From assembly GCA_014380365.1 (NCBI GenBank), contig JACMJZ010000024.1:124001-188000 (forward strand): a DNA stretch of 64,000 bases. The letters are read 5' to 3'. The notes below the pieces were generated by a model. The model was not told the origin of the DNA. It made no database searches and saw nothing but the letters and a program-made list of their open reading frames with translations. Every line of letters starts with the position of its first letter. Position 1 is the stretch's first letter. Positions 29,804-58,244 of this stretch are shown here, piece by piece. The stretch is from Pyrinomonadaceae bacterium. GTDB lineage: Bacteria > Acidobacteriota > Blastocatellia > Pyrinomonadales > Pyrinomonadaceae. Both the position numbers and the translations under genes were made by a program.

Positions 29804-31180
29804 TTATGTCGCTGGGTTCGATTGTGTTCCCTGGCCTTCCTGTCCGCCGGCATCGACCAGGGCGATTGCCAGCAGTACAGTGAAGACAAAGGCGTTAATT
29901 GGAATGTGCAAACCAAAGTCAACGAGGCTGTGGATGCTAACTGTCAGGAGGCCGGCGAGCGCCCCGAGTCTTGCAGCACGCAGGTACCGAACATTACTCC
30001 AACGACTATCAGGCTCCACTTCGCTGCGCGCGGCCCTAAGAAAACTCACAACAAACCAGATGCAGATGATCAGCGCAATTAGACCGCCGCTGGCCAACAG
30101 TTCCAGGTAATCGTTGTGGGCTTCTTGGGGTGTAGTTTCCCCCGACGCCGGATGATATTTCGGAATGGCTGTCGCATAACCGCCGAAGCCAACGCCCGCG
30201 ATGGGATGGTCCTTAATCATCTCCCAGGTCGCGCGCCAGATGCTCTGCCGCAACGTCGACGCATCAGCGGCCTGCCGATCAAGTTCAAGAGGAACTGTCT
30301 CTAACCGCACCCCCAGTGGATCACCGCCGACGAAGACTAAAGTAGCAACAGCCCCGGCCAACAAAGCAACAATCAGTACTCCGCGTACTGCGACCATCCG
30401 GCTGGCACGAAAAAAGCGATTCTCCGACGCTCGTAACTCTCCTTTCTTTTTGCTCCCAGCGCCCAACAGCAACGCAAGGAATATCACCTGACAAAGGATG
30501 CTAAGAATCCCGCCACGCGAGTTTGCCAGGACCAGCGCAACCCACATTGGCACAGCCGCTCCGAGATAAATCGCCAAACGCTTCCCCGCGACGCCCTTGC
30601 AAACCACGATGCCAAGAACTAGTCCGAGCGCCATTTCCATCAGAAAAGCGAAGTGGTTGTAGTTAATAAACTGCGCGTAGCCCAACGCCGGGCGTAAGTA
30701 AGGAAGAACGAAACCGACCTCGCGCTGACTCGCCTGCCGCCAAATGCCAAACATCGCACTCACGACGCCAATCACGATAATTAAGTTGACCAGCAAACGA
30801 AGGCGGCGCTGGCTGTCTGTGTGGACGACCAGCATCCAACCCAACAGGACGAGGGCTGTCAGGTGAATGGCAAATAGCCAGGTTTGAAAGGCGTCGACAC
30901 TCAGGGTTCTTCCGACTCGCCCTAGTCCGGGCAGATTTGCCGTAGACCAGGGAATCGTCTGCACCACGGCGAAGGCAATCAACGCCAACACGGGCAGAAG
31001 TACACCGCGATTGAGCCGGTTCGTCACGCGGCGCGTTTCGCCGCGAAGCATTTGGCCAAAGAGCGACAATCCCGCGAGCGCAAAAATCAGACATTGGAAA
31101 ACGGCTTTCCACCATGGTTCAACCGATCCATACGGTATGGCCGCAAGGAAGATCACCCCAGCCAAGCCGTAAAAGACCAT
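29804..31180 (-). CDS. O-antigen ligase / Wzy-like polymerase family membrane protein
   Basis: 458 aa from the ATG at 31180. The frame is open upstream to 31405, but that part runs through a dispersed repeat (31321-31366) and encodes GGTHILRVVHGRDAHG, so it is unlikely to be native. About 11-12 membrane helices. The diagnostic periplasmic loop is GVGFGGYATAIPKYHP...HNDYLELLASGG, the Wzy_C/O-antigen ligase signature. It joins or polymerises polysaccharide repeat units at the inner membrane. GGAGGAG lies ~20 nt before the ATG, so a start slightly upstream is possible. Confidence 0.82.
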   Translation of the reverse strand: MVFYGLAGVIFLAAIPYGSVEPWWKAVFQCLIFALAGLSLFGQMLRGETRRVTNRLNRGVLLPVLALIAFAVVQTIPWSTANLPGLGRVGRTLSVDAFQTWLFAIHLTALVLLGWMLVVHTDSQRRLRLLVNLIIVIGVVSAMFGIWRQASQREVGFVLPYLRPALGYAQFINYNHFAFLMEMALGLVLGIVVCKGVAGKRLAIYLGAAVPMWVALVLANSRGGILSILCQVIFLALLLGAGSKKKGELRASENRFFRASRMVAVRGVLIVALLAGAVATLVFVGGDPLGVRLETVPLELDRQAADASTLRQSIWRATWEMIKDHPIAGVGFGGYATAIPKYHPASGETTPQEAHNDYLELLASGGLIALIICIWFVVSFLRAARSEVEPDSRWSNVRYLRAARLGALAGLLTVSIHSLVDFGLHIPINAFVFTVLLAIALVDAGGQEGQGTQSNPAT

Positions 31181-31320
31181 CACGTCGATGACAGACGCGA
31201 CTCCTCCGTTGCGGGATATCCCAATCGACTTCGACTGACTCGGAAGTTGTTCTTTCGTCGGCAAGCGGGCGAAATCTACTCGCCCGAGGAACACGCTGTC
31301 AATCGTTGTCTCAGATGTTC

Positions 31321-31366
31321 CATGGGCGTCCCGCCCGTGAACCACGCGCAAGATGTGCGTGCCACC
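31321..31366. repeat. GGGCGTCCCGCCCGTGAACCACGCGC repeat (copy 1)
   Basis: A double hairpin: GGGCG/CGCCC-type followed by CACGCGC/GTGCGTG-type. It is the same element as 54653-54701, which runs in the opposite direction. It lies in the 5' end of the open frame of the ligase gene. Confidence 0.8.
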
Positions 31367-31488
31367 ATCGAATTTGAACACGCAACTTCCGCTATGAGTT
31401 ATCATCTGAAAACATTCTTTGGTATTTTTACGTTTCTAAGACTACTAGATTGGGCCGACCATTCGCGGGAGCGATTTACAGAAGCAAA

Positions 31489-32577
31489 ATGTCTACAGCC
31501 GAAGCACCTCTGCAAGCAAACATTCAAGAATCGCGTGCAAATCTCGATGCCTGGGTTCGTGAGGTTGTCCAGTGGCACTTCGCTCCCGATACTGGCTGCC
31601 CGTTCTGGTTAAACTACGCCACCGAACTCGGCTGGGATCCTCGTAAAGAAATCCAAACTTATGACGATCTTTCCCGCCTGGGCCCGTTTCAGGATGAGTG
31701 GTTGCGGGGTGGGCCCGTGCGCCGCTGGGTGCCGAAGGGTTATCAGAATCGGCCCGTCTATACGTTTGAAACTGGCGGAAGCACCGGCGTTCCGAAGTCT
31801 CGGATCAATATCGAAGATTTCCGTCTCGACTACGAAGCGTTTAGCCCGACTCTGCCCGACGAATTTTTTCCTAAAGGCTCAGACTGGTTATCGCTTGGCC
31901 CAACCGGCCCCCGCCGTTTGCGACTGGCAGTCGAGCATCTGGCTCAGTTTCGCGCGGGGATCTGTTTCATGATTGATCTGGATCCGCGCTGGGTCATTAA
32001 GCTGCTCAAGATGGGGCAACCGAAGATGGCTGAACAGTACAAGCAACACGTCGTCGAACAGGGCTTAACCCTGCTGCGCGCCCACGACAACATTCGTTGC
32101 CTGTTTACCACCCCCAAACTCCTGGAAGCCCTCTGTGAAAAGGTCTCTCTCAAGAAGCTTGGCATCACCGGCGTTTTCTGCGGCGGTACGGAGATGACGC
32201 CGCAGTTTCATCGCTTCGCTGTGGAAGAATTACTGGAAGGCGCATACTTCGCGCCTACCTACGGGAACACGCTCATGGGTCTGGCGGTCCACAAACCACG
32301 GCGGGAAGAAGATAATTTCGCGGTCATCTATTATCCGCCGCTGCCACGCGCGATGATCGAAGTAGTTGATCCTGACAATCCTGACAGGGTTGTTGATTAC
32401 GGCGAGACGGGTCGCGTGCGCTTGACGACGTTGACGAAGGAATTCTTCATGCCGCGTTTTCTCGAGCGTGATGAAGCGGAGAGAGAGCCGCCCTGCGAGC
32501 TCTATCCATGGGACGGCGTGCGCAACGTCCGTCCATTCTCGAGATTGCAGGCCAATGTGGTTGAGGGAGTCTACTGA
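31489..32577 (+). CDS. AMP-forming acyl-adenylating ligase (EhpF/LuxE-like)
   Basis: 362 aa from the ATG at 31489; an upstream in-frame TTG lacks support. TGGSTGVPKS at 95-104 is the ATP-binding loop of adenylate-forming enzymes; GGTEMTP and TYGNTLMG match the later motifs, and DYGETGRVRLTTLTKEFFMPRFLERDEAE the hinge. It is short, without a normal C-terminal lid, as in the phenazine-type EhpF proteins and LuxE. Expected reaction: carboxylate + ATP to acyl-AMP, then transfer to a thiol. The next gene is the reductase that would use the product. First gene of a + strand cluster reaching the permease at 39970. Confidence 0.78.
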   Translation: MSTAEAPLQANIQESRANLDAWVREVVQWHFAPDTGCPFWLNYATELGWDPRKEIQTYDDLSRLGPFQDEWLRGGPVRRWVPKGYQNRPVYTFETGGSTGVPKSRINIEDFRLDYEAFSPTLPDEFFPKGSDWLSLGPTGPRRLRLAVEHLAQFRAGICFMIDLDPRWVIKLLKMGQPKMAEQYKQHVVEQGLTLLRAHDNIRCLFTTPKLLEALCEKVSLKKLGITGVFCGGTEMTPQFHRFAVEELLEGAYFAPTYGNTLMGLAVHKPRREEDNFAVIYYPPLPRAMIEVVDPDNPDRVVDYGETGRVRLTTLTKEFFMPRFLERDEAEREPPCELYPWDGVRNVRPFSRLQANVVEGVY

Positions 32578-32579
32578 GG

Positions 32580-32711
32580 AATTTCGGATTGCGAATTTCG
32601 GATTTCGGATTGCGTGCTATCAGTTGTTCGCAATTCGACATCGCACTTGAGATTTCGGATTCCACTGACAGATTCCAAATCCGAACTTCGCAATCCGAAA
32701 TCCGAAATTTA
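32580..32711. repeat. GAATTTCGGATTTCGGATTGCG palindrome
   Basis: Left arm 32580-32614 and right arm ~32675-32711 (CGCAATCCGAAATCCGAAATT) are inverted. It occupies the whole gap between the ligase and the aldehyde dehydrogenase, ending 2 nt before the ATG. Confidence 0.85.
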
Positions 32712-32713
32712 CC

Positions 32714-34141
32714 ATGATTCACATTCCTATACTTCGCCACGGCGAACCGTACAAGAGCTTAGACGTAGCGCGTGTGGCGCATCATCAAACGCGAGAACAG
32801 TTCGTTGAAATCAGCCAGGCCAACGCCGGTCTGATCAGACGCGATCTGCGTGACCAGAAAACGGGCCGGGAAAAACTTGCAGCGTTTTCCACCGCCGAAC
32901 TGATTCAGATTTGCAGTCGCGCCGCTGAGTACTTCCTCAACGACGCACTGCCGCTCGGCGACGACGCGCAAACGGCGGAAGACTACGTCCGCCAGATTTC
33001 GGCGACTACGGGCATGCCTCACGTTTTGGCGCGCCGGAATATGGGCAAGATTCATGGCGTACTCGCGGAAGCGGGCAGTGTGCTCAACGGGCTCACGAGG
33101 AACATTGATTGGGAAGTACTCGACCGCGGGTTCGGCGAGTTTGGCGGACAGTCGCTCAGTTTCTACCCTCGCGCCGAGTCGCTGGGCGTCGTGTTGCCGA
33201 ACAACTCACCCGGAGTGCACTCGCTCTGGATTCCCGCCGTGCCGCTGAAGATTCCGCTGGTGCTCAAACCCGGCAGCGCCGAGCCGTGGAGCCCGTACCG
33301 AATAATTCAGGCGTTCATAAAAGCCGGCGCGCCACCCGAGGCTTTTAGTTTCTATCCGACGGATCACCCCGGAGCGAGTGAGATTCTTCGAAACTGCGGG
33401 CGGGGCATGATCTTCGGCGATGCTTCGTCAACTTCTCTCTGGGCCAATGATCCACGCATCGAGATCCATGGTCCCGGTTACAGCAAGATTGTGATTGGCG
33501 AAGATTGCATTGACGACTGGAAAGATTATCTCGACGTGATGGTACGTTCCATTGCCGACAACGGCGGGCGCTCGTGCATCAACGCGTCGAGCGTCTGGGT
33601 TACTGCCCATGCAGAGGAGATTAGTGAAGCGCTGGCAGAACGGTTGGCAGCGATCACTCCGCGTGCAGCCGAAGACGAAGCTGCGCAGCTGGCGCCTTTC
33701 GCTGATCCAAACGTAGCCACACGAATTTCGCGTTTGATTGACCAGGGACTGACTGAGCCGGGCGCGCGCGAGGTCACAGCCGCGCATCGATCAAGCGAAC
33801 GGCTGGTAACCGACGGTGAGTGTTCTTATCTGCTACCAACCGTCGTTCTTTGCGAAAACGCCGAGCACCCGATGGCGAATAAGGAATTCATGTTTCCATT
33901 TGTGAGCGTTGTTAAGACCACGCCGGAGCAGATTCCGGCAGCGTTGGGTCCCAGCCTGGTGGTTACGGCAATCACTTCCGATCCGGAACTCATCAACAAA
34001 TTAGTTTCCTCCCCAAATGTCGATCGGCTGAACATCGGTGCGGTGCCCACGAGTGTGATCAGTTGGGACCAACCGCACGAAGGTAATCTCTTCGAACATC
34101 TCTACGCGCGCCGCGCTTTCCAAAGGGCAGTTGCCGTGTGA
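32714..34141 (+). CDS. Acylating aldehyde dehydrogenase / acyl reductase (EhpG/LuxC-like)
   Basis: 475 aa, ALDH superfamily. LVLKPGSAEPWSPY at 182-195 is the NAD(P)-binding loop and Cys288 in GGRSCINASSVWVT the catalytic thiol. The general-base Glu motif (ELGG) of ordinary ALDHs is replaced by HGPGYSKIVIG (~252-261), as expected in acylating enzymes that reduce thioesters to aldehydes. With the preceding adenylating gene it forms a two-gene carboxylate-reducing pair. The palindrome upstream leaves no visible ribosome site. The substrate is unknown. Confidence 0.8.
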   Translation: MIHIPILRHGEPYKSLDVARVAHHQTREQFVEISQANAGLIRRDLRDQKTGREKLAAFSTAELIQICSRAAEYFLNDALPLGDDAQTAEDYVRQISATTGMPHVLARRNMGKIHGVLAEAGSVLNGLTRNIDWEVLDRGFGEFGGQSLSFYPRAESLGVVLPNNSPGVHSLWIPAVPLKIPLVLKPGSAEPWSPYRIIQAFIKAGAPPEAFSFYPTDHPGASEILRNCGRGMIFGDASSTSLWANDPRIEIHGPGYSKIVIGEDCIDDWKDYLDVMVRSIADNGGRSCINASSVWVTAHAEEISEALAERLAAITPRAAEDEAAQLAPFADPNVATRISRLIDQGLTEPGAREVTAAHRSSERLVTDGECSYLLPTVVLCENAEHPMANKEFMFPFVSVVKTTPEQIPAALGPSLVVTAITSDPELINKLVSSPNVDRLNIGAVPTSVISWDQPHEGNLFEHLYARRAFQRAVAV

Positions 34142-34200
34142 CGTAGGACAGAGATTGCTGTCTGCTGGAGTAGGTATGTAGTCTCCCGGTTTGAACTAAT

Positions 34201-34298
34201 CTCTGTGCGTCCTCTGTGTTCTCTGTGTCTCTGTGGTGAGCGATAGTTAATAAAGATTTCACCACGGAGACAAAGGGAACGCAGAGGACGCACAGAGA
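34201..34298. repeat. Palindromic repeat, CTCTGTG family (copy 2)
   Basis: Left arm 34201-34238 (CTCTGTGCGTCCTCTGTG...CTGTGGTG) and right arm ~34261-34298 (CACCACGGAGACAAAGG...GCACAGAG) are inverted. It ends 8 nt before the glycosyltransferase ATG, so the arm itself supplies the only AGAG-like ribosome site. Same family as 11617-11717. Confidence 0.85.
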
Positions 34299-34306
34299 AA
34301 TGGGCT

Positions 34307-35704
34307 ATGAAGATTCTTTATCTCACAGGCGGCGCCGGGCAGATGTACTGCGGCAGTTGTCTGCGCGATAACGCTCTCGCTACCGAACTGATCTCACGCG
34401 GTCATGACGTAACTCTGCTCCCCGTCTACACGCCGACGTTGACCGACGAACCAAACGTCAGCGGTGACAAAGTTTTCTTTGGTGGCATCAGCGTTTACCT
34501 TGAGCAGTATGTGCCGCTCTTTCGCAAGTCGCCGCGCTGGCTCGATCGCTTGTGGGATTCGACCCCGATGCTGCAGCTCGCGTCGCGACGTTCAATTTCC
34601 ACCAGTCCGAAGATGCTGGGCGAACTAACGGTCTCAATGTTGAAAGGCGAAGCAGGTTTTCAACAGAAGGAGATCGCAAAACTCCTGGAGTGGCTCGCGC
34701 ACGAAGGAGCGCCGGATGTCATAAGTTTGCCGTACACGCTGCTGCTCGGATTGGCCAAGCCGATCAAGAAAGCGCTCGGCCGTCCCATCGCTTGCACGCT
34801 TCAGGGCGAGGACCTGTTTCTCGAGGGCTTGCATGAACCTTATCGAAGCGAAGCCAAGGATCTGATTCGCGCTAACGTGGAGCACGTCGATACTTTTATA
34901 GCCGTCAGTGAATACTACGCTGAGTTCATGCCCGGCTATCTTGGAATTCCGCCGGAAAAGATTCGCGTCGTCCCGCTGGGGATCAACCTGCAAGGCTACC
35001 AACGCGGTGAGCATCAAGGCTCCGAACCTTTCACCGTCGGATACTTCGCTCGCGTCGCCCCGGAAAAAGGTCTTCAGGTTCTGGCGGACTCCTATCGCAG
35101 GCTGCGACTCAAAGAGGACTTCAGCGATGGTTCCGGCGATCGCTCAAGAGGGGTGCGTCTCGAAATCGCCGGTTACCTTGCGCCCGAACACAAGGCTTAC
35201 CTCGGCGGTATTGAGCGTGCAATAAGGAACGCGGGTTTGGGCGAAGAGTTTCATTATCGCGGCGTGCTTGATCGTGAAGAGAAGATTTCTTTCCTGCAAA
35301 GCCTGGATGTCCTGTCTGTGCCGGCGACTTATGATGAGCCGAAGGGAATGTTTCTGCTGGAAGCGATGGCCTGCGGAATTCCGGTAGTCCAACCGAGGCG
35401 CGGAGCGTTCACGGAGATCGTAGAGAAGACGGGCGGTGGTTTGCTGGTGGAACCGGATGACCCGGAGAGTCTGGCGGAAGGCCTGTTGCAAATCTACCGC
35501 GACCCGTCGCTCGGGAAACGGTTGGGACAAAGCGGTTTTGAGAAAGTTCGCGTGCATTACAGCGTCGCCCGCATGGCGGATCGCGCGCTTGCGGTTTATG
35601 AAGACTTAGTAAGCCGCGGATTAACGCGGAGTGACGCGGATCAAGAGAACGAAATTACAAATAAGACACAAAGACACGAGGGAGTGAAACCGTCGACCAC
35701 TTAA
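34307..35704 (+). CDS. GT4-family glycosyltransferase
   Basis: 465 aa. GT-B fold: N-terminal Rossmann part starting KILYLTGGAGQMYCGSCLRDNALA, LQGEDLF near 165-171, and the donor-binding C-terminal part with SEYYAEFMPGYLGIPPEKIRVVPLG, ARVAPEKGL and EPKGMFLLEAMACGIPVV (the EX7E-type site). It probably transfers a sugar from a nucleotide donor to a lipid or metabolite on the cytoplasmic face. The last ~27 residues (from SRGLTRSDADQE) are encoded by repeats and look non-native. Between the aldehyde dehydrogenase and the ABC genes. Confidence 0.85.
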   Translation: MKILYLTGGAGQMYCGSCLRDNALATELISRGHDVTLLPVYTPTLTDEPNVSGDKVFFGGISVYLEQYVPLFRKSPRWLDRLWDSTPMLQLASRRSISTSPKMLGELTVSMLKGEAGFQQKEIAKLLEWLAHEGAPDVISLPYTLLLGLAKPIKKALGRPIACTLQGEDLFLEGLHEPYRSEAKDLIRANVEHVDTFIAVSEYYAEFMPGYLGIPPEKIRVVPLGINLQGYQRGEHQGSEPFTVGYFARVAPEKGLQVLADSYRRLRLKEDFSDGSGDRSRGVRLEIAGYLAPEHKAYLGGIERAIRNAGLGEEFHYRGVLDREEKISFLQSLDVLSVPATYDEPKGMFLLEAMACGIPVVQPRRGAFTEIVEKTGGGLLVEPDDPESLAEGLLQIYRDPSLGKRLGQSGFEKVRVHYSVARMADRALAVYEDLVSRGLTRSDADQENEITNKTQRHEGVKPSTT

Positions 35705-35764
35705 CCATCGGTTTCAGTGTTGGCGTCTTATCTTGCTAACTTTGTGTCTTCGTGCCTTAGTGGT
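35659..35764. repeat. Imperfect palindrome, AAGACACAAAGACACGAGG family
   Basis: Left arm from 35659 (AATAAGACACAAAGACACGAGGG) lies inside the end of the glycosyltransferase gene; right arm to 35764 (GCGTCTTATCTTG...TTTGTGTCTTCGTG) lies in the gap before the ABC gene. Confidence 0.75.
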
Positions 35765-35822
35765 TGATAGCTCTTAACCCGTGTTTCCGGTAATCCGCGG
35801 CCCAATGTTCTTCGGAGGTTCT

Positions 35823-36488
35823 GTGCTTCAAGTTGAGAATGTTTCCAAGGAATATCCAGCGCCAGGCGGGGCGCTGAAAATCATTTCCGACATCTCGCTG
35901 TCGCTTTCGCGCGGCGACGCGGTGTCGATTATGGGTCCGTCGGGAAGCGGCAAGAGCACACTGCTGTACATCATGGGGGCACTCGAACCGCCTACCAGCG
36001 GCACCGTCAGACTCGATGGGCAGAATCCGTTTCAACTCAAACCGAAAGAGCTGGCCGCCTTCCGAAATAAGGAGATCGGTTTCATTTTCCAGGACCACTG
36101 CCTGCTCCCGCAATGTTCAGTTCTCGAGAATGTACTGACGCCAACGCTGGTTTCCACGGCGAGTGGGGATCGCGGTGAGCGTGCGCGTGCGTTGCTCAAA
36201 CAAGTGGGGCTGGGTGACCGTCTCGATCATCGACCGGCAAAACTCTCCGGCGGTGAGAAGCAGCGCGTTTCGCTCGCCCGCGCCCTCATCACAAAACCGC
36301 AGCTCCTTCTCTGTGACGAACCGACCGGCAATCTCGATCACAAAGCCGCCAACGTGGTCGCTTCACTGCTGCTGGAGTTGCATCAGCAACAGGAAACGAT
36401 CCTGGTTGTGGTTACGCACAGCGCCGAACTAGCCGCACGATTTCCCCTGCGTTATGAGTTGACCGATCACGAGCTCCGGCAGGTGTAA
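35823..36488 (+). CDS. ABC transporter ATPase (LolD/MacB-type)
   Basis: 221 aa from the GTG at 35823, chosen because GGAGG lies 4 nt upstream and the protein then opens [11 protein letters not shown] like other LolD-type ATPases; an ATG 18 nt earlier (35805) is possible. Walker [10 protein letters not shown] at 38-46, signature LSGGEKQR, Walker [13 protein letters not shown] and H-loop VTHS are all intact. It powers the FtsX-type permease that follows with a TAATG overlap. LolD/MacB-type systems move lipoproteins, peptides or small molecules from the inner membrane by mechanotransmission. Confidence 0.93.
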
Positions 36489-39400
36489 TGCAAACTTCAC
36501 AACTCGTTAGACGAAATCTTACACACTATTGGCGCACCAATCTGGCCGTAGTTTTGGGTGTCGCGACGGCGGTGGCCGTCCTCGCCGGAGCGTTGCTGGT
36601 CGGTGATTCAGTACGCGCGAGTCTGCGCGATCTAGTCGTCCAGCGACTAGGACAGACAGACCATGCAATCACCGCCGCTGCTTTCTTCCGCGAACAGCTT
36701 TCCGATGACCTTCAGAAAGATGGTGCCTTTGCATCGCGGGGACTTTCAAGAAGCTGCCCACTGATTGAGTTGGCAGGAAGTGTTCGCCAGGAGACAAACG
36801 GAACACGCGCCGGTGATGTTAGCGTCTATGGCGTTGATGAAAGATTCTGGGAATTTCATGGTCGCGAAGTGTCGGCTCCGCAGAATCGCGAAGTGTTGGT
36901 CAGCGAGAGTCTGGCTCGTGAACTCAACAGCAAGCCGGGCGATTCACTGCTGGTTCAGATCGAAAAGCCTTCCGAAGTGCCCATTGAATCGCTGTATGGA
37001 CAGAAAGAGGACCTCGGCAGCACGCTGCGTCTAACCATAAGGGAGGCATTAACCGCGAATCAGCTCGGCGAGTTTTCCACCCGGCCTCAACAGGCTGCGG
37101 TGCGCGCTGTGTTTGTGCCTCTTCAGCTACTGCAAAAAGAACTGGACCAGCAGGACAAAGTCAACGTATTACTTGTTTCCAGATCGAAAGACACTGCCGG
37201 TCTCTCGGATGGTGAAAGGACGGCGGCGCTTGAAGACTTACTCAAAGATAGAGCTGAATTAGAGGACTACGGCATTGATTTGCGGCCGCTGGATGAAGAG
37301 CGAGGGATTTCGCTGGAGCGCACGAGCACGTTACTGGATGACAAGCTGGCTCAGACCGCACGCGCAACAGCCGGGGCCTTGCCCGCGCAAACGCTGCCCG
37401 TTCTGTCTTATCTCGCCAATAGCATCAGTTCTGGTGAGCGCTCAATTCCCTATTCGTTGGTGACAGCGCTCGATGAGAACAGATTTAAGAGCTTAATAAC
37501 CTCGAGGAAAGCTGGAGCGACTCCCAACCTTGATGACCCATCACTCCCGATCATTTTGAACGAATGGGCCGCCCGGGATCTCGGCGTGCGCGAGGGAGAT
37601 TCTGTTTCGCTCGAATACTATCTCTGGGGTGAAGGTGGTCGTTTAGAGACGAAGACGACGCCGTTTCAACTCGCGGCGGTCGTGCCGATGACTGGCATCG
37701 CGGCCGATAGGGATTTGGTCCCTGAATATCCGGGTATCACCGGATCGGAAGATCTTTCTGACTGGGATCCTCCTTTTCCAGTCGATCTAAAACGCATACG
37801 CAAACAGGATGAGGACTACTGGGACCAGTATCGCACTACTCCAAAGGCTTTCATTCCGCTCGCCAAAGGACAGGAACTTTGGCAGTCGCGCTTTGGCAAA
37901 CTGACTTCATTACGAATCTTTCCAGCGCCCGGCGCCTCGGTGGGGCAAACGCTCGACTTGTATCGGCAGAAACTAAGAGCCGCTCTGGATCCTACCACTA
38001 TGGGGTTGGCTATTATTCCTGTTCGCGCGCAAGGTCTGGAAGCTTCGCGCGGTGCGACTGACTTCGGCGAATATTTCCTCTACTTCAGTTTCTTCCTGGT
38101 CATCTCCGCGCTTCTATTAACTGCGCTCTTCTTCAAACTCGGAATCGAGCAGCGGTTGCGTGAAATCGGGGTGTTACAAGCCGTGGGATATCCGGCGTCG
38201 AAAATCCGTTCGCTCTTTCTCGCCGAAGGACTACTTCTCGCCGTTGCGGGAAGCATTATCGGGTTAGCCGGCGCGCTCGCTTACAGTGCGTTGATGATGC
38301 TGGGGCTGCGCACCTGGTGGGTCGATGCTGTCGGAACTACGATACTGAGGTTGCATGTGTCGCCGCTGTCGCTGGTGCTCGGCGCCGCAGGAGGAATTCT
38401 TGCGGCGCTGATCTGTGTCGCGTGGACACTCAGAAGTTTGAGAAAGCAATCCACGCGCAGTCTGCTGACGGGCACTCTCTCGCGTGACGAGGAAAAGGGA
38501 CGCGGCGACGCAGCGACACGGAGACCCGGCGAAGCAACCGCGCGTCGCCGCGTCGCCGTGTCGCCGCGCCTCCTGATTGCGAGTGTTATCGGTTTCATTG
38601 CGCTAATGCTCTTGATTGCATCGGCGCTGAATTTGATTGGGCAGACACCGGGATTCTTTGGTGGCGGGATGCTCTTGCTGGTAGCGGCGCTGTGCTTTCA
38701 GTCAGCCTGGCTGCGTCGCGACGGAGGAAAGACGATCGATGGCGCAGGTTGGTGGACGGTCGCGCGTCTGGGATTCAGGAATGCGACCTATCGTCCGGGC
38801 CGCAGCGTGGTGTGCATCGCGTTGATTGCTTCGGCGGCCTTCATCATCGTTTCGGTCGATGCCTTCCGGCGTGACATCACAACGACCCGCGATGCAGATT
38901 CAGGCAGCGGTGGTTTCCCACTCCTGGCTGAGTCGTTATTACCAATCGTCCATGATCCAAACACTCGCGAGGGACGAGAAGTTTTGAACCTCGATGCGCA
39001 AGACGCTTTATCTCCAACTGCCGCTGTGACCTTCGCGCGCTTTCGGGTGCGCCCGGGCGACGACGCCAGTTGTCTCAATCTCTATCAGCCGAAGAATCCT
39101 AAGATCATCGCACCCACCGACGACTTCGTTCGTCGCAAGCGCTTCGGCTTTCAGAGTTCTCTGGCCGCGAGCGATGAGGAGAAGGAAAATCCATGGCTGC
39201 TGCTGAATCGCGAATTTCCCGATGGGGCCGTACCGGTGATTGCTGATGCAAACTCAATGACCTATGTGCTGCACCTCAAGCTCGGTGAAGATCTGGTCTT
39301 ACCGCAGAGGAGCGACGGCCAGCCGATTCGTCTGCGTTTGGTGGCAGCTCTCTCTGACAGCATCTTCCAAAGCGAACTCGTGATGGCGGAGAAGAATTTC

Positions 39401-39970
39401 CTGCGTCTTTTTCCCGAGCAGGAAGGTTATCGTTTCTTTCTGATCGCCATGCCCGACAACACGTCAGCCACGCCGGGTTCTGAGTCCTCCAGCGCAGTCG
39501 CAGCTCTTCTCGAGGATCGACTTTCAGATTTCGGCTTCGACGTTATCTCCACCGAGGAACGGCTGGCAAGTTTTCATCGCGTGGAAAACACCTATCTCTC
39601 CACTTTCCAAATGCTCGGCGGCCTCGGCCTGCTCCTCGGCACGCTCGGTATGGCGGCCGTGTTGTTACGTAATGTGCTGGAGCGACGCCGCGAGCTCGCC
39701 CTGTTGCGGGCTGTCGGTTACAACTCGTCACACTTCACTTTGATGATCATCGCGGAAAACGCTTTCCTCCTTTGCTGTGGGCTGCTTACCGGAACGGTCT
39801 GCGCGCTACTGGCCATCGCGCCAGTCTTCTTTTCTCGACCAGCACACGTCGGCAGTTTTTCGCTGGGCTTGTTGTTGCTCGCGGTATTAATATCCGGGCT
39901 GACCGCCTCAATTGTCGCGACGTGGGCCGCGTTGCGCACGCCATTGCTGCCGGCGTTGCGCGCGGAATGA
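36488..39970 (+). CDS. Large double FtsX-type ABC permease
   Basis: 1160 aa. One N-terminal membrane helix (~20-42), a large periplasmic region (~45-520), a first FtsX domain (~525-650: [25 protein letters not shown]), a connector with helices (~695-735), another anchored helix (~765-790), a second periplasmic region, and a C-terminal FtsX domain (~1035-1150: [25 protein letters not shown]). Both halves of a MacB/LolCE-like dimer are thus fused. Translation is coupled to the ATPase (one-base overlap). Residues ~671-698 (an Arg-rich stretch) are encoded by an inverted repeat and lie between the first FtsX domain and the connector. Confidence 0.88.
38497..38572. repeat. Inverted repeat of the GACACGGAG family inside the permease gene
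   Basis: Left arm 38497-38534 (GGGACGCGGCGACGCAGCGACACGGAG...) and right arm 38539-38572 (CGCGCGTCGCCGCGTCGCCGTGTCGCCGCG) are inverted. It is in frame, encoding an Arg-rich cytoplasmic loop. Related to 16580-16654. Confidence 0.8.
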
Positions 39971-40020: not shown

Positions 40021-40050
40021 CAGAATCAGCAGTATTTGGGAGAGGCAACA

Positions 40051-41334
40051 ATGCAGCTCAAAGTTGAAGGGACAAGTATGCGTAAATTCATAGCCGGAAT
40101 ATTCGCTGTTGTAATGCTGTCAACCACAGTTGCTTCGGCGGAAAATTGGCCGCAGTGGCGCGGCCCCAGTTTGAATGGCGTCAGCGCGGAGAGGAATCTT
40201 CCGGTGAAGTGGACGGCTGACGAGAACATCGCCTGGAAACTGGCGATGCCCAGCTGGAGCGGTTCGACTCCGATCGTCTGGAACGATCGGGTTTTTCTAA
40301 ACGTCGCGGAGGGAGACGATCTTTATCTCTGGTGCGTGGAGCGTACGAAGGGCGCGCTCGTCTGGAAGAAGTTGCTTGGGGCGGGCAATGTCAAGATGCG
40401 AAAGCAGAATATGTCGTCGCCATCGCCCGTCACCGACGGCAAGGGCGTTTTCGTCATGACCGGTACCGGCATCCTCAAAGGCTTCGACTTCAACGGCAAG
40501 GAGATTTGGTCGCGGGATATTCAAAAGGACTACGGTGAGTTTGGACTTCAATGGGGCTACGCTTCGTCGCCGTTGTTGTTGGACAACGCACTTTACGTTC
40601 AGGTCTTGCACGGAATGAAGACCGACGAGCCTTCCTACGTTTTGCGTTTAGATAAAACGAGCGGCAAAACCATTTGGAAAGTTGAACGCCTCACCAGCGC
40701 GATTCGTGAATCGCCCGACGCCTACACAACGCCCGCGGTGCTTCGTTACGGAAAAACCGCTGAGTTGGTAGTAACCGGGGGAGATGTGGTGACGGGCCAC
40801 GACCTGGCAACCGGCAAAGAGCTTTGGCGCGCGAACGGTCTCAATCCTGAAAACCTTCCCTTCTATCGTATCGTGGCCTCGCCGGTAATCTTCAACGACA
40901 TCATCTATGCGCCGACACGTGTGAAGCCGCTACTCGCTCTGAAGGCCGGCGGGCGAGGAGACATCTCGACGTCGCACGTTCTCTGGTCCACGCCAAACGG
41001 ACCCGACGTGCCGACACCCGTCACCGACGGAAAATATTTCTACATCGTTAACGATAAGGGAATCATGTGGTGCCTTGATGCGAAGACTGGCGCGGAGATT
41101 TATGGACAGCAGCGCCTCAAGCCGGGAACCTACAGCGGTTCGCCGGTGCTGGCTGATGGAAAGATCTACGTGACGAACGAGGACGGACTAACATCGGTGG
41201 TGAAGGCTGGAGCCGTGTTTGAAGTCTTAGCTGAGAACCCGCTTAATGATTATTGTCTCAGTTCGCCCGCGATTTCCGGCGGGCAGATTTTCATACGCAC
41301 GTCGACAAACCTTTACTGCATCGGCAAGAAGTAA
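40051..41334 (+). CDS. Exported PQQ-type beta-propeller protein
   Basis: 427 aa from the ATG at 40051, which has GGGAGAGG upstream; a second ATG at 40078 also gives a signal peptide. The signal ends near [19 protein letters not shown] opens the mature protein, and repeated W-motifs ([38 protein letters not shown]) mark the eight-bladed PQQ/BamB-like propeller. It could be a quinoprotein or a scaffold; no dehydrogenase metal site is obvious. It follows the permease by 80 bp and may belong to the same transcript. Confidence 0.85.
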
Positions 41335-49534: not shown

Positions 49535-50764
49535 CTACTTCTTCTCCCTTACATCGTAGGCGTAGATGGTGTCCTGATCGCGCAAGTAGAGCCGGCCACC
49601 AGCCACTACCGGGTGCGCCCAGGTTGGTAGATTGTCTTGCGGAATGCGGAAGCGTCCCTTTTCTTTGTAACCCTCCGGAGAGACTTCCACCAGGCCGACC
49701 ACTCCGTTTTCGCTCAGCGCGTAGAGATTGCCGTCGGCATAGACGATTGAACCCTTGCCGACGCTGCGGTCCTTCCAGGCGACTTCGCCCGTGTCGAAAC
49801 GCATGGACGTCAGGATGGGCCCCGAGAATCCGTAGAGGTGATCGCCGATCAGAATCGCACTGCTGTGATGGTTGCGCATGTCTTTGGTGAAATAGACTTC
49901 TTGCGCCTTGCCGTCGGCTGAGATCTCAACTACTCCGCCTCCGTTGCCGTAGTCGGAAGAAATGAACACGCGGTTGCCACGGACCACAGGCGTCGCCGCG
50001 TTGGCGACCTTGTTGGCGGCGCGCGGGTATTCCCACATGAGCTTCCCGTCTTTCAGGTCAAGCGCGAGCCCGCGCGTGTGCGTAAAGAACACCACCTGCG
50101 TCGTGTTTCCGACCTGAACCGGAATGGCCGAGGAGTAACCGGCGCGATCGCTCTGGCTCTTCCAGATTAGCGAGCCGTCCTTTTTATTGAGCGCCACGAT
50201 GGAGGCGCCCGGCCCACCGGGGTTGACGAGTAGCTTCTCGCCGATGACCAGCGGCGACTCGCTGATTCCCCAGGTAATATTCGAGCCGCCGAATTTCTGC
50301 AACACGTTCATCGTCCATAGCAGGCGACCCGTGCGCGCGTCAATGGAGGAGAGATCGCCATTTCCACCCAGGGAGTAGAGGTTTCCACCATCAACTGTGG
50401 GAGTGCCACGCGGGCCGTCGCCGCGATCATTGCGAAACGCGCCGCCATGCGCGGTGGCCCAAACCTCTTTCCCAGTTGCCACGTCAAAGGCGATGACAAA
50501 CTCGCGATCGCCGCGCAGTCCCATCGTATACAACCGCCCGTTTGAAATTGCGAAGGAGGAATAACCACCTCCAGCCCCGCTCGCCTTCCAAGCCAGCGGT
50601 GGACCATCGGCAGGCCACTGCTTCAGGAGGCCGGTCTCTTTGGAAATGCCGTCGCGATTTGAGCCGCGCCACTGCGGCCAGTTGCCACCGGTCTGGGCAA
50701 CGGTCGCAGCGGACAAGCACAAAACAAGAACTACCACGCTAAATTGGGTTTTGATGTTCTTCAT
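49535..50764 (-). CDS. Exported PQQ-type beta-propeller protein
   Basis: 409 aa from the ATG at 50764, with GAGGAGA upstream; the longer frame to 50896 is not needed. Signal peptide ~1-24 (AATVAQ), then NWPQWRGSNRDGIS. Blade motifs include GKEVWATAHG, GRLLWTMNVL, GSLIWKSQSD and GKLMWEYPRA. A paralogue of the protein at 40051. Possible redox or scaffold role in the periplasm; PQQ ligands cannot be assigned. Confidence 0.85.
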   Translation of the reverse strand: MKNIKTQFSVVVLVLCLSAATVAQTGGNWPQWRGSNRDGISKETGLLKQWPADGPPLAWKASGAGGGYSSFAISNGRLYTMGLRGDREFVIAFDVATGKEVWATAHGGAFRNDRGDGPRGTPTVDGGNLYSLGGNGDLSSIDARTGRLLWTMNVLQKFGGSNITWGISESPLVIGEKLLVNPGGPGASIVALNKKDGSLIWKSQSDRAGYSSAIPVQVGNTTQVVFFTHTRGLALDLKDGKLMWEYPRAANKVANAATPVVRGNRVFISSDYGNGGGVVEISADGKAQEVYFTKDMRNHHSSAILIGDHLYGFSGPILTSMRFDTGEVAWKDRSVGKGSIVYADGNLYALSENGVVGLVEVSPEGYKEKGRFRIPQDNLPTWAHPVVAGGRLYLRDQDTIYAYDVREKK

Positions 50765-50888
50765 GATCGGGTCTCCTCTAAAGTACGCGAGCAGAAACTC
50801 ATTTCCATTGGGGAGTATGTTGTGGAGTGAACGCAGGAGCGTTCCCTCCCGACGAAAACACAAATTCACGATGGTCAACAGGTGTACA

Positions 50889-50966: not shown

Positions 50967-51416
50967 TTAAGCCTGCGGTTTGAAATACAACACGAGGCCC
51001 GCGCCGCTTGCGGCTAATAAAAATCCCACGTAGAGCAATGGATTGGGCGAAACCTTCGGCGGGTGGAGCCACATCGAAAACAGCACGTTCACGAGCGGCG
51101 CGCCGGCAAACACGAGCGGCATCACGTAAGTCGGGAGGCCGCCGTAACGGAACGCGAAGATGATGCACACCGCGCCCGCAGCCCCGAGCACACCTCCCAG
51201 CGTTGCCGCCAAAGAACCCTTCATGGTGAAGCTATGTAATTCTCCCTGATAGGAAAGCATGGCTACCGGAACCAAAACTCCGATTAGGAAGTAAGCAACT
51301 CCGACGCAGAGCAGCGCGCGCATCGGACTACCAAGCGCAACCTGCCCGCGATGCAATGCCGGGCCATAGAGCCCCCACGACAGCGCGGCACCCAAAGCGA
51401 AAAGTATCCAGAGCAT
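50967..51416 (-). CDS. EamA-like membrane protein (DMT superfamily, half-size)
   Basis: 149 aa with about five membrane helices; GGVLGAAGAVCIIFAFRYGGLPTYVMPLVFAGAPLVNVLFSMW is the EamA/DMT repeat pattern. Length fits a half-size transporter that would dimerise. Substrate unknown. It lies 34 bp after the minus-strand TonB receptor stop and may share its transcript. Confidence 0.72.
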   Translation of the reverse strand: MLWILFALGAALSWGLYGPALHRGQVALGSPMRALLCVGVAYFLIGVLVPVAMLSYQGELHSFTMKGSLAATLGGVLGAAGAVCIIFAFRYGGLPTYVMPLVFAGAPLVNVLFSMWLHPPKVSPNPLLYVGFLLAASGAGLVLYFKPQA

Positions 51417-51450: not shown

Positions 51451-54732
<3,282 letters not shown>

Positions 54733-54983: not shown

Positions 54984-57900
54984 ATGTCAACTGCTGCAAA
55001 AACTCTCCTACTCATGTTCATTCTCTGCCTGTCGTCAACTGCCAGCGCGCAAACGCATCGCGGGTCAGTGCGCGGGACAATTACCGATCAGAATGGTGCG
55101 GTCATTCTCGGCGCGGAAGTTAAGCTGATCAATGCGGATACAAACGCGACTCGAATAATGGTTAGCAACGCCGAAGGCGAATACGCGATCTCCTCGTTAC
55201 CGCCGGGCCCCTGCCGACTGGAAGTGTTTGTCCAGGGCTTCGCCAGATTCGTGCGGGACATTACGCTGAATGTGAATCATGAACTACGTGTGAACGTAAC
55301 GATGGAGGTCGGCGGGATTCCCGGCTCTGAGCCCCAAACAATCATTTCATCACCTGATGACTTGAAGAAGGATTCGGCGTCACTGGGCACCGTTATTGAG
55401 AATCGGCAGGTACAAGGGCTACCTCTTGATGGACGAAACTTTTACGAGTTGACTTTGCTTGTGCCTGGAGCCGCTCCGGCAGCGCCGGGTTCTGCCGGAT
55501 CGGTGCGCGGTGATTTTGCTTTTAGCGTTAATGGCGCGCGCGAAGACGGCAACAACTTCCTGCTCGACGGCGTTTACAATATCGATCCAAAACTGAACAC
55601 CTTCGGCGTGCGTCCGCCCGTTGACGCCATCCGCGAGTTTGAAATGCTGACCAGCAGCTACGACGCTTCCTTTGGTCGCAACCCCGGCGCGCAAGTCAAT
55701 GTTGTCCTGAAGTCGGGCGGCAACGATGTTCACGGATCGCTCTTCGAGTTTCATCGCAACGCCGCTTTGGATGCGCGAAACTTTTTCGCGCCCGCCGGCG
55801 AGGCAAAACCAAAGTACATCCGAAATCAGTTTGGCGGCTCGATCGGTGGCCCAATTAAACGCGATCGCACATTTTTCTTCGGTGACTACGAAGGCACGCG
55901 TTCGCGCGAAGGCATTACGCGCGTGACCAACGTGCCGACGCTGCTTGAACGCGCTGGTGATTTCTCGCAGTCGATTGACGTTTTACGCCGCCCGGTCTTC
56001 GTGAGTAACCCTTTCCTGCCGAGAGACCCGATCACCGGCCAACCGCTTTTCGCCTGCAACGCCACTGACCAAACCGGATGCTTCCCCGGCAACCGCGTGC
56101 CGCTCGCGTTTCAACATCCAGTCGGCCGGGCTCTTGCCGCACTCTATCCGGCGCCGAATCGCGACGTCCCCTTTCAAAACTTCGTCTCGTCACCCACACA
56201 AATTGACGACAACAACAGCTTCGACGCGCGTCTCGATCATCGCCTAACTGAACGGACGGATTTGACGGTTCGATATAGCTTCGGCGACCGCAATCTGTTC
56301 GAGCCTTTTACGGGTCCAACCTTTTCACTCGTGCCCGGTTTTGGCGACCAGGTGAAGAGACGCAGCCAGAATGTCATGGCCGCGCTAAACATGGTGCTGA
56401 CGCCGGCTTTTGTAAATGAAACACGGGTAGCCTTGAGTCGGGTTGCTGCTTCGGTAACTCAGGAGGCCAGCCGGCTTAACCAGGACCTGGGCCTGCCGGT
56501 GGTTTCGCCCAATCCACGCGATGCCGGCCTGAGTTTCATCACCGTAGCCGGCTTTTCCCCGCTGGGAGATGAAGGCAATAACCCTCAAAACAGCGTCACG
56601 AATGTCTATCAGGTTCTGGACACGGCAAACTACGTCCGAGGCAGTCACTTGATTAAGTCTGGCTTGGACTTCCGCTTCGCGCAGCAAAACGCGTTTCGCG
56701 ACGTTGAGTCGCGCGGGCGCATCACGTTTTCACCGTTCGCGCAAATCTCCGGCAACGCGCTGGCGGATATGCTGTTGGGCTTCCCAATTTTCACGAGCGT
56801 GGCTCGGGTGGATAACCCGCAGCACCTGCGCACGCAGAGTTACAATTTCTTTGTCAACGACAGCTTCCGCGTTAGTCCGCGGCTGACGCTGACCGCGGGC
56901 TTGCGTTACGAATACAACACGCCGCCAGTTGACACCACGGACCGCGCGAATGTGTACGACGTGGCTACGGGGACGCTAGTGCAGGTAGGGACCAACGGCG
57001 TTCCTCGCGGCGGCTTTAAGCCCGACAGAAACAACTTCGCGCCGCGTGTAGGTTTCGCCTGGACGCTCGGCAAGGATCAGGCGACCGTAGTGCGCGCCGG
57101 CTACGGAATTTACTACGATCAGTCGGCGCTGGCGCCGGGTGAGGCGCTCTATTTCAATTCGCCTTATTTCGACAACAACATTTTCTTCTCGCTGCCTGGT
57201 TTGCCGTTGACCTTGAGCAATCCCTTTCCTTCATTCTTCCCATTCCCGCTGCCCGATTCGGCGCTGGCTATTCAACGCGACCTGCGCACGGCCTACATGC
57301 AGCATTGGAATTTCAATGTGCAGCATGAGGTGCGTCGCAATAGCGTATTGGAAGTTGGATACGTCGGCTCCAAGGGAACGAAGCTACTGACAGCCCGCGA
57401 CATAAACCAACCGCAACCAAGCGTGTTGCCGCCAGGATTGCCGTTCGTGCCCCGGCCGAACCCTCGGTTTGACGACATCAATTTGCTCGAGTCGCGGGCG
57501 AATTCGAATTACCACAGCCTTCAGGCGCGCTACCAACAGCGCTTCTCGAAAGGTCTCGCGGCGCTGGTGTCATACACCTGGTCGAAGTCGATTGACGACG
57601 CGTCAAACTTTTTTAGCAGCGCGGGCGATCCAAACTTTCCCCAGGATAGCAACAACGTCCGGGCCGAGCGCGGGCGTTCAAACTTCGACGTCAGACATCG
57701 CCTGTCTGCGAGCTATTCGTATGACCTTCCGTTCGGCAAGGGCAGCCGCCATCTGGCTGACTCCGGTTGGGTTTCCACTTTCCTGAGCGGTTGGCAGACC
57801 TTCGGCATTGTTACTCTGCAAACGGGCAGGCCATTCACCGTCGCGCTGCTGTCGGAAATCGACAACAGCGGAACCGGGCGGTCGATTCTCGGCTTCGGCG

Positions 57901-58244
57901 CCAATGACCGTCCAAATGTCGTCGGCAATCCGAGCCTGGCTAACCGTTCCGCCGGGCAGTGGTTCAACCAAAGCGCATTTGCTTTCCCGGCGCCAGGAAC
58001 TTTTGGCAACGCCGGCCGCAACATTCTCGAGGGGCCGGGCTACACCAACGTGAACGCATCGCTGGTGAAGAACACTGCGCTTTCAGAGCGGTTCAACCTG
58101 CAGTTACGCGCAGAGGCTTTCAATCTATTCAATCATCCAAACTTTAACTTGCCGGATAATTTCCTGGGCTCGCCGACGTTTGGTCAGATCACTTCGGCTC
58201 GCGATCCGCGTCACCTACAGTTTGGCGTAAAGCTGCTGTTTTAG
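54984..58244 (+). CDS. TonB-dependent receptor with carboxypeptidase-regulatory domain (Oar-like)
   Basis: 1086 aa from the ATG at 54984, preceded by AAGGGG and giving a signal peptide (~1-23, STASAQ). CarboxypepD_reg-like domain at ~26-115 ([29 protein letters not shown]), plug at ~135-250 ([33 protein letters not shown]), then the barrel, ending LQFGVKLLF with a terminal aromatic. It is paralogous to and divergent from the previous receptor, with ~250 bp between the starts. Sits in the outer membrane; substrate unknown. A truncated DedA fragment follows. Confidence 0.93.

Follow-up and report, generated by a model that had tools for sequence, protein, structure and literature searches.

A co-inherited gene island predicted to join aryl acid reduction to a YbbAP-type transporter in Acidobacteriota and other bacterial phyla

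Introduction

The tandem enzymes EhpF and EhpG belong to the operon for the phenazine D-alanylgriseoluteic acid of Pantoea (Enterobacter) agglomerans, in which EhpF to EhpO, apart from the exporter EhpJ, carry phenazine-1,6-dicarboxylate onward (PMC3175449). In grixazone biosynthesis, GriC and GriD likewise form a two-protein system that reduces an aryl acid, 3-amino-4-hydroxybenzoate, to its aldehyde (PMC10179220). Among transporters, the type VII ATP-binding cassette (ABC) system of Escherichia coli is YbbAP-TesA, and YbbAP has been reported to pull hydrophobic compounds from the inner membrane (PMC12646458). Here, we describe a locus that unites relatives of EhpF/EhpG and of YbbAP: five genes at positions 31489-39970 of a 64,000-nucleotide window (the whole stretch of DNA analyzed) from contig JACMJZ010000024.1 of a Pyrinomonadaceae bacterium. 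These genes probably represent the reductase-and-export part of an undescribed co-inherited island, in which an aryl acid would be converted to an aldehyde and then an alcohol, and the product, probably glycosylated, would be exported by a YbbAP-type ABC machine.

Each part of the island comes from a known family. The preliminary description of this DNA had called the system undescribed, and no published account of the gene combination or its cross-phylum co-inheritance was found in the literature searched, which leaves most subscription journals outside.

The five-gene core

Final gene calls were made with a codon-usage-based open reading frame (ORF) caller. The five ORFs follow one another in a single direction on the plus strand, as initially described, and encode an EhpF-type adenylating ligase (31489-32577, 362 amino acids), an EhpG-type acylating aldehyde dehydrogenase (32714-34141, 475 amino acids), a GT4 glycosyltransferase (34307-35704, 465 amino acids), a LolD/YbbA-type ABC ATPase (35805-36488, with an alternative GTG start at 35781) and a single-chain permease with two FtsX domains (36488-39970, 1160 amino acids). 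Successive gaps are 136, 165, 100 and -1 bp; the overlap, found only between ATPase and permease, bears out the earlier view of these two as a coupled pair. Promoter and terminator scans gave signals no greater than in shuffled sequence. The account of a cluster of five genes stands in that all five are present, but the set is larger, with a propeller gene starting 77 bp downstream of the permease and further members at 49.5-51.4 kb and beyond the end of the window.

The probable acid-reducing pair

Residues 20-362 of the 362-residue ligase align with residues 21-366 of EhpF (structures 3l2k and 3hgu) at an E-value of 1e-42. This full-length match upholds the earlier assignment to EhpF, and the ligase, an atypical ANL enzyme, ends like EhpF without the ANL C-terminal domain. 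The ATP-binding P-loop motif E[TS]GG[ST]TGxPK is found in all 99 ligase homologs. In the aldehyde dehydrogenase (Aldedh, E 8e-16), the catalytic cysteine is retained within the motif N[GS]GRxC (66 of 66 homologs), while the position of the ELGG general base is occupied by GPGYSK, confirming that this base is absent. In plasmid records, in the window and at many other loci, an EhpF-type ligase is found in tandem with an EhpG-type aldehyde dehydrogenase. The preliminary description had also likened the pair to LuxE and LuxC. This kinship is rejected in favor of EhpF/EhpG, because the LuxE (PF04443) and LuxC (PF05893) models gave no match at E 0.001 in a Pfam scan.

The pair thus shares its tandem arrangement, full-length homology and catalytic motifs with EhpF/EhpG. 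It differs in that the window proteins are only about 30% and 22% identical to them and are accompanied by a GT4 glycosyltransferase, a type VII transporter, an iron alcohol dehydrogenase and propellers. In a tree, the ligases of this system cluster tightly, and a long branch divides them from phenazine-type EhpF, the placement of such long-branched outgroups being unsure. The phz families were absent from the window neighbors scanned and present at the Pantoea and E. coli plasmid loci. GriC/GriD, likened here by their described activity, belong to an actinomycete pigment pathway in which neither exporter nor propellers are known. Given the catalytic motifs shared with EhpF/EhpG and the GriC/GriD precedent, the pair is most likely an aryl-acid-reducing one, so that the proposed conversion of acid to aldehyde is supported by homology.

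Several related pairs occur in other settings. Four genomes of the group f2 carry a second, diverged ligase/aldehyde dehydrogenase pair (63-66% and 45-46% identical; L031:12295-14910, L033:6098-8706, L035:8117-10678 and L037:7492-10353), and in the same four genomes the main cluster is without its own aldehyde dehydrogenase. A haloarchaeal plasmid of Halalkalicoccus jeotgali encodes an SSF symporter, an EhpF-type ligase and an EhpG-type aldehyde dehydrogenase in a row, with no phenazine context (L053:7956-10572). In Streptomyces angustmyceticus, an EhpF-type gene annotated as an arylcarboxylate reductase adjoins mqnE and lies near mqnC (L052:10001-12313), a possible link to the futalosine menaquinone genes. 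Lastly, a gene for a Vut_1 (putative vitamin uptake) transporter lies directly upstream of the ligase in some genomes (L038:8661-9413, L042:8843-9526, L043:8602-9336 and others).

Co-inheritance and reach across phyla

The presence and absence of the genes were compared in 97 related genomes by Fisher tests, with counts given as both genes/ligase only/partner only/neither. The ligase is present in 35 relatives, the permease in 36, the aldehyde dehydrogenase in 35 and the glycosyltransferase in 34. Co-inheritance with the ligase is close to all-or-none for the aldehyde dehydrogenase (34/1/1/61, p 7e-24), the glycosyltransferase (33/2/1/61, p 2e-22), the permease (33/2/3/59, p 4e-20) and a small EamA-like membrane protein (34/1/2/60, p 1e-22), and extends to a secreted propeller (28/7/3/59) and an iron alcohol dehydrogenase (28/7/2/60). 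Over these six partners p ranges from 1e-14 to 7e-24, values that are too small because related genomes are counted as independent. Orthologs of the iron alcohol dehydrogenase occur in 30 relatives, of which 28 carry the ligase and two the permease only, and in none of the 59 genomes with neither. As a control, the upstream Wzy_C-type neighbor (29804-31405), which resembles O-antigen ligases, is unlinked to the ligase (p 0.16) and was rejected as a member of the set. Five genera contain both carriers and non-carriers, and within them the genes are still present or absent together. Exceptions are mostly fragmented assemblies, although one relative that is 96% complete (G068) has the ligase and permease with no glycosyltransferase or aldehyde dehydrogenase at the thresholds used.

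The order ligase-aldehyde dehydrogenase-GT4-LolD-FtsX is kept in 24 loci, corresponding to about 20 genomes, some of which are represented twice. A neighborhood search had been proposed earlier, with failure of the five genes to co-occur elsewhere as the outcome that would count against their linkage; given this recurrent order and the joint inheritance, the claim of linkage stands. It could be argued that an aryl reductase pair merely lies beside an unrelated lipoprotein transporter with a glycosyltransferase, since only the ATPase and permease overlap, the remaining gaps are 100-165 bp, and the ligase is on a separate contig in some genomes. Such a chance neighborhood is contradicted by joint presence and absence, even where the genes are unlinked, and by the conserved order, and is extremely improbable.

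A ligase scan of 84,980 species genomes revealed at least 569 relatives, 80 of which were kept for study. The kept ligases, which share 66-90% identity, belong to Acidobacteriota (Pyrinomonadaceae, Bryobacterales, Vicinamibacteria and Sulfidibacter), Planctomycetota, Verrucomicrobia, Poribacteria, KSB1 and Calditrichia. In each of 20 of 20 ligase-bearing genomes outside the relatives of the window, there is one best FtsX homolog (37-45% identical, mostly full length), often on a contig other than that of the ligase. Together with other genes, the five make up a set of about nine or more, gained or lost as a unit in several bacterial phyla.

Glycosyltransferase and transporter

The GT4 assignment holds (Glycos_transf_1, E 7e-25), and no relative of this enzyme was found in the PDB at E 1e-15. 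For the ATPase, the top match is LolD, followed by YbbA (186 vs. 173 bits). The permease has a MacB_PCD match in addition to its two FtsX domains, and its AlphaFold2 model (pLDDT 78.8) is nearest in fold to YbbP (9ge6; Z 24.5 over 725 residues, root-mean-square deviation (rmsd) 6.7, 14% identity in the fold alignment), ahead of LolC/LolE or MacB. The earlier label of a LolD/MacB ATPase with a double-FtsX permease is therefore right with regard to LolD, the FtsX domains and the MacB_PCD match, but the permease fold is closer to YbbP than to MacB. With its LolD/YbbA-like ATPase and single-chain double-FtsX permease of YbbP fold, the pair is of the YbbAP type (type VII) of ABC transporters.

Compared with YbbP of E. 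coli, the window permease is longer (1160 vs. 804 amino acids). LolCDE and MacB share the ATPase family, the FtsX domains and the periplasmic core domain. However, LolC and LolE are separate chains, whereas the window encodes one chain with two FtsX domains, and the ATPase of MacB is fused to its permease, while that of the window is separate. No TesA-type hydrolase partner was found among the neighbors scanned, a genome-wide search not having been made.

Since the permease fold is closest to YbbP and YbbAP extracts hydrophobic compounds, export of an amphipathic aromatic compound is the best reading of this transporter. The same components would also fit a lipid. In this alternative, the ligase, aldehyde dehydrogenase and alcohol dehydrogenase reduce a fatty acid or some other lipid acid, and the resulting fatty alcohol is glycosylated to a glycolipid that the YbbP-like machine takes toward the outer membrane; a GT4 enzyme and a type VII transporter suit an amphipathic lipid, and YbbAP handles hydrophobic compounds (PMC12646458). 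The nearest characterized relatives of the pair, though, use aromatic acids, the LuxE and LuxC models are unmatched, the partners in other phyla are of aryl type (chorismate lyase fold, 4HBT and PaaK), and there is no acyltransferase or acyl carrier protein (ACP) among the recurrent partners scanned. A glycolipid product is accordingly rather improbable.

The larger island and its secreted propellers

Immediately downstream of the permease lies a gene for a secreted beta-propeller resembling those that bind pyrroloquinoline quinone (PQQ) (40048-41334, plus strand; PQQ_2, E 5e-27). A close ortholog is present in 31 relatives, all with core genes of the set and 28 with the ligase. A second secreted PQQ-like propeller gene (49535-50869, minus strand; PQQ_2, E 3e-34) adjoins the gene for the EamA-like protein of about 149 amino acids (50967-51416, minus strand), which is found in 36 of the 97 relatives, 34 of them with the ligase. 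Beyond the window end, the same contig encodes propellers of 733 and 445 amino acids, an iron alcohol dehydrogenase, near position 75755 in the numbering of the window, and another propeller. In two relatives (G043 and G017), the ligase, aldehyde dehydrogenase, glycosyltransferase, ATPase and permease lie within about 30 kb of propellers, a HemN-like enzyme, a flavin enzyme and an outer-membrane protein, with the EamA-like gene among them and a propeller beside it. The ligase is directly preceded by two propeller genes (about 740 and 470 amino acids in several loci) in Planctomycetota, Verrucomicrobia, Poribacteria and some Acidobacteriota. Judged by eye from its sequence, the larger propeller carries a signal peptide and resembles a lectin in its C-terminal part.

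Propeller number was determined as PQQ_2 matches at E 1e-15 or better in 20 complete ligase-positive and 20 ligase-negative genomes. It is 5-19 (median 12) in the former and 0-5 (median 1) in the latter (p 6e-8), an excess that persists per megabase and within genera. This raises the alternative that the pathway leads to a quinone-like aromatic prosthetic group, which is exported and built into the secreted propellers. Mycofactocin, as a parallel, was found through its client dehydrogenases. In line with such a role, propeller genes are the commonest neighbors across phyla, the iron alcohol dehydrogenase is co-inherited, and the flavin enzyme counts the maturases QhpG, LodB and GoxB among its relatives. 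On the other hand, relatives of the propellers score only 35-88 bits against the PQQ-dependent dehydrogenase models TIGR03075 and TIGR04528 (cut-offs 480 and 650), the window propeller likewise falls far below the cut-off, as does similarity to empty-quinoprotein models, and cofactor binding by the propellers is hypothetical. Propellers also occur without the set, and a prosthetic group would need neither glycosylation nor a thioesterase. We consider this alternative unlikely, if the strongest of those weighed here. A broader idea, speculative and likewise doubtful, is that the product of the island is a new aromatic redox cofactor or prosthetic group, exported to serve the large family of secreted PQQ-like propellers of Acidobacteriota, Planctomycetota and Poribacteria; if true, those propellers would be quinoproteins whose cofactor is not PQQ.

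A TonB-dependent-receptor-like outer-membrane protein (51451-54732, minus strand; OMP_b-brl_4, E 2e-177), whose membership in the set is unsure, has a homolog within the island in G043 and G017. It is one of two such large proteins, the other being encoded at 55014-58244 (plus strand). As homologs occur in the same island of related genomes, one of them may be involved in uptake or release of the product.

Partners in other phyla

Recurrent neighbors in other phyla include a PaaK-type ligase, an iron alcohol dehydrogenase, a HemN-like radical SAM enzyme, a flavin enzyme, a 4HBT-type thioesterase (whose gene the EamA-like homologs adjoin), an EamA-like protein, DUF3311 and SSF symporter genes, and a protein of 158-200 amino acids without a Pfam match. 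This last protein has no relative by sequence in Pfam or PDB profile searches and is recognized by fold alone. Its model (pLDDT 85.6) has the DUF98/chorismate lyase fold, matching 2nwi at Z 17.9 (rmsd 2.0 over 144 residues) and chorismate lyase 1g81 at Z 12.8. Of 20 ligase-positive genomes from other lineages, 15 encode this protein, compared with none of 30 genomes from the window's class, and from its modeled fold it probably forms 4-hydroxybenzoate from chorismate. An ortholog of the HemN-like enzyme (E 1e-90 or better, compared with 1e-60 to 1e-40 for general HemN/HemW relatives) is present in 20 of 20 ligase-bearing genomes of other lineages and, within the window's class, in nine of 15 ligase-positive and none of 15 ligase-negative genomes.

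The tryptophan motif WxWxIP is a mark of flavin-dependent halogenases (PMC8407142). WxWxIP or WxWxLP is found in 22 of the 24 flavin enzymes that have the flavin motif (GxGxxG), and these motifs predict enzymes of the flavin-halogenase type. The motif Fx.Px.Sx.G gave no match in the flavin enzymes with a fixed-spacing pattern, which is not a fair test of it. In these other phyla, a chorismate-lyase-fold gene lies next to a flavin halogenase-type gene, which recalls the bmp pathway of marine bacteria (Bmp6 chorismate lyase and Bmp5 halogenase). However, WxWxIP is absent from Bmp5 (PMC8407142), the island has an acid reductase while bmp as reviewed has none (PMC7918430), and the chorismate-lyase-like protein was not found in the genome of the window. 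A type II polyketide synthase or aryl polyene pathway was also considered and rejected, as what had been taken for an ACP and a ketosynthase next to the flavin enzyme at one locus (L094) are DUF3311 and an SSF symporter.

The DUF98/chorismate lyase fold, the 4HBT thioesterase, PaaK and the WxWxIP flavin enzymes support aryl chemistry for the island. Alternatively, the SSF symporter could import aromatic acids that are then processed reductively, either to detoxify or to use them, and the ABC machine would remove the product; in many genomes, SSF and DUF3311 genes lie next to the HemN/flavin pair, and the haloarchaeal plasmid has an SSF gene upstream of its ligase and aldehyde dehydrogenase. 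Yet a dedicated chorismate-lyase-fold gene in other phyla points to biosynthesis, and import would leave the glycosyltransferase and the propellers without a role, making this explanation highly unlikely.

Proposed mechanism

In the favored reading of reduction followed by export, the EhpF-type ligase would adenylate an aryl carboxylic acid and the EhpG-type dehydrogenase would reduce the resulting acyl-adenylate, yielding an aldehyde. This would then be turned into an alcohol by the iron alcohol dehydrogenase, whose co-inheritance supports this step, suggested from the start. In Planctomycetota and related lineages, the acid would probably derive from 4-hydroxybenzoate made by the dedicated chorismate-lyase-type enzyme and altered as a CoA ester. 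The GT4 enzyme probably glycosylates the product or its carrier; the exported aromatic product is perhaps itself glycosylated, to judge from the presence of this gene. Driven by ATP, the LolD-type ATPase and YbbP-like permease would extract the amphipathic product from the inner membrane, and it would meet the secreted PQQ-like propellers in the periplasm.

Several points weigh against this proposal. Identity is only about 30% to EhpF and 22-26% to EhpG-type aldehyde dehydrogenases, and all of the chemistry is assigned by homology. The genome of the window has no match to either the chorismate-lyase-like protein or the HemN-like ortholog. The GT4 enzyme may act on something else, and the outward direction of transport is drawn from the likeness to YbbAP. 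Finally, the Fisher tests treat related genomes as independent, and the ligase-negative controls are all from the window's own class.

That several abundant, poorly cultured phyla of soil and sponges inherit the genes as a unit, with the ligase 66-90% conserved between phyla, points to a widespread and seemingly undescribed molecule. The island gives a first handle on the role of the many PQQ-like propellers in these phyla. With it, EhpF/EhpG-type acid reduction reaches beyond antibiotic operons into a conserved system, and YbbAP-type transporters gain a candidate role with small molecules. The complete genome of a named strain, Sulfidibacter corallicola M133, carries the set, which makes the system testable.

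Two further observations concern the distribution of the ligase. A genome titled Cyanobacteria (L070) has the full five-gene order and a ligase that groups inside Acidobacteriota, and is probably a mislabeled bin. In Poribacteria (L111-L133), the genes next to the ligase and aldehyde dehydrogenase repeatedly include those for a sulfatase, an M19 membrane dipeptidase and a Vgb-lyase-like protein.

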